This document shows, in pieces, positions 21,287 through 24,371 of a stretch of 64,000 nt of DNA. The notes under the pieces were generated by a model. That model had not been told where the DNA came from and did not search any database. It saw nothing but the letters and a program-made list of their open reading frames with translations. Each line of letters starts with the position of its first letter. Position 1 is the first letter of the stretch. Position numbers and translations under genes: made by a program. The stretch comes from Chloroflexota bacterium (GTDB taxonomy: Bacteria > Chloroflexota > Anaerolineae > JAAEKA01): positions 1-64,000 of the forward strand of contig JAYELL010000077.1 of the NCBI GenBank assembly GCA_034717495.1, written 5' to 3'.

Positions 21287-22813
21287 TCAGGACTTCGCGT
21301 CGGCGAATCCCTCTTCGCTTGTATTGGAGAAAAGCTCGTCGAGCGAGAGATCAGCCCAGGCTTCCACTAAAGCTGTATCCAGGCCAAGCTCCTTGGCGAC
21401 GCCGTTGCCGTACGCCGGATCAGCCAGGTAGAAGTGAACAAGCTGGCGAACCCTGATCCGTTCGGGTACACCCTCCATGGCTGCTGCGATATTTCCGAAG
21501 AGTTGCCCCTGCTGATCCGCGGTCATGAGCCGGAACAGATCGCCTGGTTGAGAATAGTCATCATTACCGTCGCGATGGTCGTAGCGGCCGGCATCGCCGG
21601 AGATATTGAGAGGCGGTTCGAGATACCGGGAATCCTCTTCCGGGCCTCCCATGCTGTTGGGCTCATAGTTGACCGCGCCACCAGCATTGTCATCGAAACG
21701 CATTTTGCCATCCCGGTGATAGGTGTTCACTTCGGATCGCGGCTTGTTGACCGGCAATGCAGCATAGTTGACACCGATTCGATAGCGATGAGCATCGGCG
21801 TAGGACATGATCCGGGCCTGAAGCATCTTGTCAGGTGAGAACCCTATTCCGGGCACAATGTTCGATGGCTCGAAGGCCGCCTGTTCGATCTCGGCATGAT
21901 AGTTCTCTGCATTTCGGTTGAGTTCCATAATTCCCACATCGATCAACGGGTAGTCGCCGTGGGGCCAGACCTTGGTCAGGTCGAAGGGGTTGAGATCGTA
22001 GGTCCCGGCCTCTTCTTCTGACATGATCTGAACACAGAATCGCCACTTCGGGAAATCCCCGCCTTCAATGGCCTCAAACAGATCCCGCTGGGAGCTTTCC
22101 CGGTCTTTCCCGATGATTTCGGCACCCTCGGCATTGGTCCAGGTTTTGATGCCCTGCATCGTCTTGAAATGGAATTTCACCCAGAATCGCTCGTCCTGGT
22201 CGTTAATGAAGCTGTAGGTGTGGCTCCCGTAGCCATTGATAAAGCGGTAGCTCTGAGGCAGACCCCGGTCGCTGAACAGGATGGTCACCTGGTGCAGGCT
22301 CTCGGGGGAGAGAGACCAGAAGTCCCACATCGCGGTGTTGGAGCGTATATTGGTCTTGGGATCGCGCTTTTGGGTATGGATGAAATCGCTGAACTTGTAG
22401 GGGTCGCGCACGAAGAAGACCGGGGTATTGTTGCCAACCATATCCCAGTTGCCTTCTTCCGTGTAGCATTTCACCGCGAACCCGCGCACATCTCTTTCGG
22501 CATCGGCCGCACCCCGCTCACCGGCAACCGTGGAGAAACGAACGAGAAGATCAGTCTCCTTGCCAATCTCGGAAAAGATATTAGCCTTGGTGTACCTGGT
22601 GATATCGTGGCTCACGGTCAGGGTGCCGAATGCCCCGGAACCTTTGGCATGCACAACCCGCTCCGGGACCCGTTCACGGTTGAAGGTCGCCATCTTCTCA
22701 AGAAGTTGGTAATCCTGCAAAAGCACCGGGCCGCGCGGCCCTGCCGTCTGGGTGTTCTGGTTGTCGCCAATGGGATTGCCGTGGGAAGTCGTCAACTTTT
22801 TGCGATCAGTCAT
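21287..22813 (-). CDS. katA: Monofunctional haem catalase
   Basis: 508 residues. The distal His is His55 in [37 protein letters not shown] is the family core, and the proximal haem Tyr sits in [15 protein letters not shown]. The length fits small-subunit (clade 3) catalases. Dismutates hydrogen peroxide. Start at 22813 (MTDRKK) chosen because AAAGGAGATAACC lies directly upstream; the frame is open further up. Divergent from the selenoprotein candidate, each with its own promoter. Confidence 0.96.
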
Positions 22814-22896
22814 GGTTATCTCCTTTGGTCTACCTGTTGGGCTCGTGATGCCGAACGTTTGCCAAGCCTGCAAGTGAATCAGTCAACTTGCAGGAC

Positions 22897-22999: not shown

Positions 23000-23143
23000 T
23001 GCCCGACGCAAGCCTCATCATTGTGATCCTCACCGGCGGTAGTTTGGGATGCCATCTTGAGTTGACCCGGAAGCTGGTCGCCGGCTGTGCGTTGGTGGAT
23101 CAGATCAAGAGAGAGGAATCAGCCACTCCAGGAGGACACCGAT

Positions 23144-24025
23144 ATGTCAAAACGTAGCCTGCTGCTAACCCTTCTTTTATTGATCGGGTTGGTAGCATCA
23201 GCCTGTCAGGCGCCCGTGGCAGTCGCACCAGCGCCCGCCGACAACCCCGATGCACCGGCCGTCGAGCCGGACGAGGAACCGGTCGTAGAGGAGAACGCAA
23301 CCCCGACCGCCGAACCGGCGAGCGCCACCCAGCAGCCTGAGCCTACAGAACCCCCTGTCGAAGAGCTGGCCGCGGAAACGGAAGGGTCGAACGCCGAGAC
23401 GGTGGAGGGTGGGGAGATGGAGGGAGCGCCCCCGGACCCGCTGGCAGCCGATCCAGATCGGCCCGGCTTTGCCATGGATGGATCGCCAAGCCTGGGTGAC
23501 CCGGATGCACCGATCGTCATCATCGACTTTTCGGATTTTCAGTGACCGTTCTGCCGTCGCCACGTGTTGGAGACAGAACCACAACTGAAGGACACCTATG
23601 TCGCCGATGGCCAGGTACGATTGATCTATAAGCACTACCCCTTGCCAAATCACCCGTTGGCCGCCAAGGCAGCGGAAGCATCAGAATGTGCATCCCAGCA
23701 GAACATGTTCTGGGAGATGAAGAGATTGTTGTTCGAGACTGACGACGAATGGGGCCGGGCAAGTGATCCGGCAGACCTCTTCGAAAACTATGCTGCTGAC
23801 CTGGATCTGGACACGGCCGCCTTTCGCGCCTGCTATGACAGCGGCCAGGCGCAACAACGCTGGCAAGAGGATGTAATGCTCGGCCAGAGTGCCCAGGTTT
23901 CTGGCACGCCCAACTTCTTCGTCATTCGCATGGCGGATCACACCGGAACCAGGATTCCCGGTTTCGTGGATTTTGCCCAGTTCCAGCAACTCCTGGATCA
24001 GCTGTTGGCCACACCGGAAAGCTAA
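23144..24025 (+). CDS. DsbA-like thioredoxin-fold lipoprotein with in-frame TGA at the active site (probable selenoprotein)
   Basis: Read through one TGA (23543-23545) the frame encodes 293 residues. Residues 1-21 are a lipoprotein signal ending VASAC; 22-115 are a Pro/Glu/Thr-rich spacer; a thioredoxin-fold DsbA domain follows. The TGA is codon 134 and falls exactly at the first Cys of the active site: IDFSDFQ-TGA-PFCRRHV, giving UxxC with Cys137. The frame continues intact with the family features YKHYPLP and the cis-Pro loop VSGTPNFFV. A ribosome site (AGGAGGACACC) precedes the ATG, and a hairpin starts two bases after the TGA. Selenocysteine is the best reading; a nonsense mutation or sequencing error is the alternative. 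Probably a membrane-anchored extracytoplasmic thiol oxidoreductase. Confidence 0.8.
23548..23579 (+). promoter_or_regulatory. Candidate bacterial SECIS hairpin
   Basis: Arms GTTCTG (23548-23553) and CAGAAC (23574-23579) enclose 20 bases that can add a weaker upper stem (CCG/TGG side, then C-G and G-U pairs) with a small apical loop near 23559-23565. It begins two bases after the TGA, so the loop is about 13-15 bases downstream, near the spacing of known bacterial SECIS elements. I could not fold it computationally. Confidence 0.45.
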
Positions 24026-24044: not shown

Positions 24045-24371
24045 CTACAGAACGTCGGACATCAAGGAATCCTGCTCAGCGGCGCATCGCGCGCAGTAGC
24101 CAGTCGCATCGAGTTGCGCCGAGTGTTTGGTGCAGATAACAAAAATCTCCATGCGCTCGCCAGAGAGAAACTGTTTGCGTATGGTGCCCTCGATCGCCAG
24201 ATAGGGGCAATTGGTCTCTCGCAACACATCGGGAACCGAACAGGTATCACAGATCTTGCGGTGCCAGTGGCGGGACTCCCGTCCTTTCGACAATCGGCAT
24301 TCGATGGTCTCCTGACCGCGAAAGTAATCCTCAAAGTAAAACCGGCAGTTTGGGGGGGCATTCTTGCTCAT
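24045..24371 (-). CDS. Small Cys-rich protein, function unknown
   Basis: 108 residues with nine Cys, arranged as NCRFYFEDYF, IECRL, ICDTC, NCPYL, ICTKH and YCARC. Several CxxC pairs plus His suggest bound zinc or an iron-sulfur centre. No signal peptide or membrane segment, so cytoplasmic. It converges on the selenoprotein candidate with a 19-base gap; this neighbourhood is suggestive of redox function but not evidence. I do not recognise a family. Confidence 0.6.
   Translation of the reverse strand: MSKNAPPNCRFYFEDYFRGQETIECRLSKGRESRHWHRKICDTCSVPDVLRETNCPYLAIEGTIRKQFLSGERMEIFVICTKHSAQLDATGYCARCAAEQDSLMSDVL

Follow-up and report, generated by a model that had tools for sequence, protein, structure and literature searches.

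DsbA-like selenoproteins with a UxxC active site, in which U is selenocysteine (Sec), have been known for some time. They were described in 2005 from nine sequences of COG2761 (Zhang et al., PMC1088965), again in 2006 (PMC1794560) and in 41 organisms in 2016 (PMC5029168). A 2026 catalogue lists a DsbA-like form 1 (PF01323, UxxC) and a DsbG-like type (NF041057, UxxC), each with one Sec (PMC13188914), and a 2026 review describes the functions of DsbA-like and similar selenoproteins as largely uncharacterized. Chloroflexota members of the PF01323/COG2761 selenoproteins are not mentioned in the accessible parts of the catalogues from 2005 onwards, and the deep-Sep paper makes no mention of Dsb proteins. 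The NCBIfam family NF041057 (Rcas_1661 family thioredoxin-like (seleno)lipoprotein) is defined by a lipoprotein signal, a single thioredoxin-like domain and a C/UxxC motif.

Here we describe a gene at 23144-24025 (+ strand) of a 64,000-nucleotide window, by which we mean the whole stretch of DNA analysed, from a Chloroflexota draft genome of 5.0 Mb in 120 contigs, with an estimated completeness of 95.6%. With a probability of about 0.94, we consider this to be an intact selenoprotein gene in which a TGA encodes Sec at a DsbA-like active site, with decoding by SelB and a downstream hairpin, and whose product would carry out disulfide exchange while tethered to the membrane. A Shine-Dalgarno sequence (AGGAGG, 23131-23136, +) precedes the ATG at 23144, from which translation gives 293 residues, including Sec134, up to a TAA stop. 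The predicted lipoprotein signal peptide MSKRSLLLTLLLLIGLVASAC (23144-23206, +) places the putatively lipidated cysteine at position 21, the lipobox (...LVASAC) having been called by inspection rather than with a signal-peptide program. It is followed by a low-complexity acidic spacer rich in Pro, Ala and Glu (23207 to approximately 23458, +; residues about 22-105), presumed from its composition to be a flexible tether, and by a DsbA-like thioredoxin-fold domain with a helical insertion and the cis-Pro loop SGTPNFF (23459-24022, +). The first-pass annotation had pointed to a frame running cleanly through a TGA where the first Cys of CxxC belongs, and this is borne out: the only internal TGA (23543-23545, +), which falls inside the interval 23535-23560 singled out there, lies in the context FSDFQ-TGA-PFC and corresponds to the first residue of U-P-F-C. 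An in-frame UGA thus stands at a redox-active position with the frame open on either side. Plain open reading frame calling divides the gene into two fragments, 23087/23144-23545 and 23564-24025. Codon-position GC content 5' and 3' of the TGA was uninformative.

The same annotation had recognized DsbA-family features and a cis-Pro in this frame, which profile searches and structure prediction confirm. With the TGA read as Cys, both Pfam Thioredoxin_4 (PF13462; 90.8 bits, cut-off 23.2) and DSBA (PF01323; 45.4 bits, cut-off 25.6) span it, and the TP of the cis-Pro loop is almost invariant among 41 homologues of the domain. The UxxC motif and cis-Pro therefore lie within a DsbA fold recognized by PF01323, as in the DsbA-like UxxC family. 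An AlphaFold2 model of the domain, built with the 41-sequence alignment as input, had a mean pLDDT of 97, and the best Foldseek matches to this predicted fold (TM about 0.8) were the Cys-type Wolbachia alpha-DsbA1 (3f4r), Corynebacterium diphtheriae DsbA/TsdA (4pwo, 7unn) and Bacillus subtilis BdbD (3eu3). These share the C/U-x-x-C and cis-Pro active site with the window protein at 21-29% identity, however, the latter has Sec as the predicted attacking residue. The catalogued PF01323/COG2761 selenoproteins have the DSBA/Thioredoxin_4 domain, UxxC motif and downstream bSECIS in common with the window gene, whereas the lipoprotein anchor and acidic Pro-rich spacer are absent from the accessible parts of their accounts. 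This layout is not new, contrary to what had been suggested at first, as it is already captured by NF041057. The window protein aligns over positions 2-246 of the 247 in that model and shows the same lipoprotein signal (lipobox by inspection), single domain and active site, but scores 162.5 bits (Sec read as Cys) against a curated cut-off of 190. It is thus a diverged relative of this family, just below the curated cut-off.

A second Sec-DsbA lipoprotein is encoded in the same genome (G000:C100:30277-31092, - strand; L007), with a TGA at the same place (YSDFL-U-GAC). This paralogue exceeds the NF041057 cut-off at 243 bits, has U-G-A-C where the window protein has U-P-F-C, and carries a perfect 7-bp hairpin with a CGUGU loop 3' of its UGA. 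Conservation of the codon extends far beyond this genome. Among 396 genomes of the class, a degenerate active-site motif with TGA occurred at 110 sites in 83 genomes, the same motif with TAA or TAG at three, and the reversed pattern of the TGA search gave 0 matches. A stricter TGA motif was found at at least 120 loci in GTDB species genomes from many phyla; record labels among the matches listed include Chloroflexi, Acidobacteria, Rokubacteria, Myxococcales, Rubrobacter, Nitrospirae, Nitrospinae, Planctomycetota and Binatia. One locus (L084, CAMBFS010000190.1), from a metagenome-assembled genome labelled Klebsiella pneumoniae, holds a Sec-DsbA of a type otherwise seen in Rokubacteria and Acidobacteria records, and this bin is probably mislabelled or contaminated. 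Aligning homologues had been proposed as a check on the selenoprotein reading, and the active-site column proved to hold Cys or TGA, with TAA and TAG not above chance. In a FastTree phylogeny built from 177 domains with Sec and 34 with Cys, the Sec/Cys state changes at least 11 times, seven of these changes being forced by well-supported branches, although the rows were gathered mainly via TGA and the tree therefore gives neither the direction nor the true rate of change. The window domain sits there on a long branch with no supported neighbours; its highest identity, 47%, is to the Sec domain of L038.

A SECIS-like hairpin lies immediately downstream of the TGA (23548-23579, +). Its outer stem (23548-23552/23575-23579) has 5 bp, its inner stem (23556-23562/23568-23574) is paired at six of seven positions with one G.A mismatch, and its 5-nt loop CGUGU (23563-23567) begins 17 nt after the UGA. 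The published bSECIS description gives a loop of 3-9 nt, an upper stem of 4-16 bp, a G in the first two loop positions, a distance of 16-37 nt from the UGA and a minimum free energy of -7.5 kcal/mol or lower (PMC13188914); the window hairpin, at -9.6 kcal/mol, agrees with it in the size and G of its loop, in its distance from the UGA and in its energy, and has a stem with one mismatch. By itself it is not remarkably stable (z of -0.10 for the single-sequence fold and -0.45 against synonymous codons), and such folding is no proof of a SECIS. An Rfam search of the window at gathering thresholds gave no match, the only match being a tRNA in a comparison locus. When 131 Sec loci were set against 31 Cys loci with roughly the same GC content, the 42 nt 3' of the codon proved more structured in the former, mean z against synonymous-codon nulls being -1.39 for Sec and +0.19 for Cys (p 3e-9, which is optimistic given the relatedness among the Sec loci). 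For the subgroup of the window gene we took 40 distinct loci selected solely by CGTG at positions +18 to +21 downstream of the TGA, which fixes the CGUG loop. In the 7-bp stem flanking it, 94% of cells are paired, compared with 32-51% when the stem is slid and at most 74% when sequences are shuffled, and several compensatory pair types occur at most positions. The case for a putative SECIS in the window gene is comparative rather than single-sequence, and this covariation is its strongest evidence.

The first-pass annotation also called for a search for the Sec machinery, which was largely but not wholly successful. The host genome encodes selA (465 bits) and selB (349 bits, contig C99), both above their cut-offs, and a tRNA-Sec (71 bits, anticodon tca, contig C108), but no SelD exceeded its cut-off in the 95.6% complete assembly, and a SelD from the same family gave no match to it as query (run without a positive control). 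Two candidates were rejected. C16:23113-23877 reached 94.5 bits, below the SelD cut-off, and scored higher as HypE, also below the HypE cut-off; C103:9546-10268 is HypE-like and adjoins, by inspection, a HypD-like open reading frame. SelD is above cut-off in 126 of 150 relatives from the class, including three of five members of the family, and one relative (G002) resembles the host in having selB with SelD below cut-off. We read the missing SelD as a probable assembly gap rather than a dead pathway. SelD itself has an in-frame TGA in nearly all class relatives (e.g., CAGUASKM, L290:990-1937), and its annotation in the class is for this reason probably truncated as well. Within the first 150 relatives, the host included, 35 genomes have the TGA site and 32 of these have selB, the others (G053, G125, G135) all being fragmented drafts. 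This association is weak evidence alone because selB is present in 124 of the 150 regardless of the site.

Could the TGA instead have arisen recently by nonsense mutation, or be a miscall of TGC or TGT, leaving a 133-residue lipoprotein stub as the sole product? The source is a draft in 120 contigs that lacks SelD, and the hairpin is unremarkable as a single sequence, all of which would fit a pseudogene or a sequencing error. However, the same codon is TGA in the paralogue and in over 100 loci from independent assemblies, the 159 codons downstream are intact and the hairpin covaries. The excess of TGA over TAA and TAG at that codon rules out random nonsense mutation, as had been anticipated when the site was first noticed, and we regard this explanation as a whole as highly improbable. 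A frame open across a TGA would likewise be expected if UGA were read as another amino acid, whether by reassignment to Trp, Cys or Gly or by leaky readthrough. Against this, TGA acts as an ordinary stop here, ending 17 of the 33 long open reading frames in the window and occurring internally in none of the nine genes neighbouring the Sec gene, which rules out genome-wide reassignment; moreover, the sites cluster at a single catalytic Cys column and selA, selB and tRNA-Sec are present. Decoding as something other than Sec seems to us slighter still in its chances. The selenocysteine reading of 23543-23545, proposed at the outset from the sequence, is strongly supported by the machinery genes, the homologues, the TGA of the paralogue and the comparative hairpin.

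The data establish the reading frame and its TGA, the machinery genes other than selD, a SECIS on comparative grounds and a predicted DsbA fold, and from these a mechanism may be outlined for this selenoprotein. SelB bound to the hairpin 3' of the UGA would deliver Sec-tRNA-Sec, such that the ribosome reads UGA as Sec, and the product would be exported and lipid-anchored, with the acidic Pro-rich tether keeping the catalytic domain off the membrane. The selenolate would act as nucleophile on disulfides or oxidized thiols of presumed client proteins, and Cys137 would resolve the reaction via an Se-S bond. Relative to the Cys paralogues of the same genome, the Sec protein may exchange disulfides faster and recover better once over-oxidized. 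The net role could be that of an oxidase, isomerase or reductase, depending on the direction of electron flow. A catalase gene (21287-22873, -) is the divergent neighbour across a 270-bp intergenic region, and the two genes may share an oxidative-stress context; no recognized redox partner gene adjoins the Sec gene. Just downstream and convergent with it is a Cys-rich open reading frame of 108 residues (24045-24371, -) without a Pfam match. The adjoining catalase could also speak for a role in peroxide or in selenium or metal handling, and peroxidases are generally known among other thioredoxin-fold selenoproteins, including in the 2026 catalogue (PMC13188914). Such a role is compatible with a selenoprotein, but UxxC, cis-Pro and the helical insertion together are features of DsbA/DsbG enzymes and we find it unlikely.

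Cys-type relatives also exist in the host genome. One is a Cys-only three-domain DsbA lipoprotein (G000:C38, L012:2163-4046), which is followed downstream by a CcmE-domain gene and preceded by what looks, by inspection, like a prolipoprotein diacylglyceryl transferase gene. Another is a Cys-type DsbA (G000:C108, L013:885-2189) immediately followed by a VKOR gene, the two being likely to form an oxidative pair. Elsewhere the domain occurs in tandem: L185:3643-6885 has five DsbA domains, of which three carry Sec and two carry Cys, L183:6232-7957 has at least three Sec in a partial sequence, and L077, L207 and L059/L197 have two Sec each. In these chains, from Myxococcales/Deltaproteobacteria and Chloroflexota records, each TGA corresponds to the first CxxC Cys of its own domain. 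DsbA chains with more than one Sec did not turn up in a brief search of the open-licence literature. The window gene probably belongs to a large radiation of Sec-DsbA proteins that is poorly covered by the catalogues and in which single domains switch between Sec and Cys; the tandem chains of this radiation, with two to three Sec, would be among the few multi-Sec proteins of bacteria.

Overall, this kind of protein is already catalogued, yet it is far commoner in the class than the literature suggests (83 of 396 genomes). Standard gene calling breaks the gene at its active site, and such proteins would therefore be overlooked or recorded as fragments where they are common. The co-occurrence of Sec and Cys paralogues in one genome, the Sec copies being backed by clean comparative evidence of a SECIS, would allow a direct test of what advantage Sec may bring to extracytoplasmic disulfide exchange.
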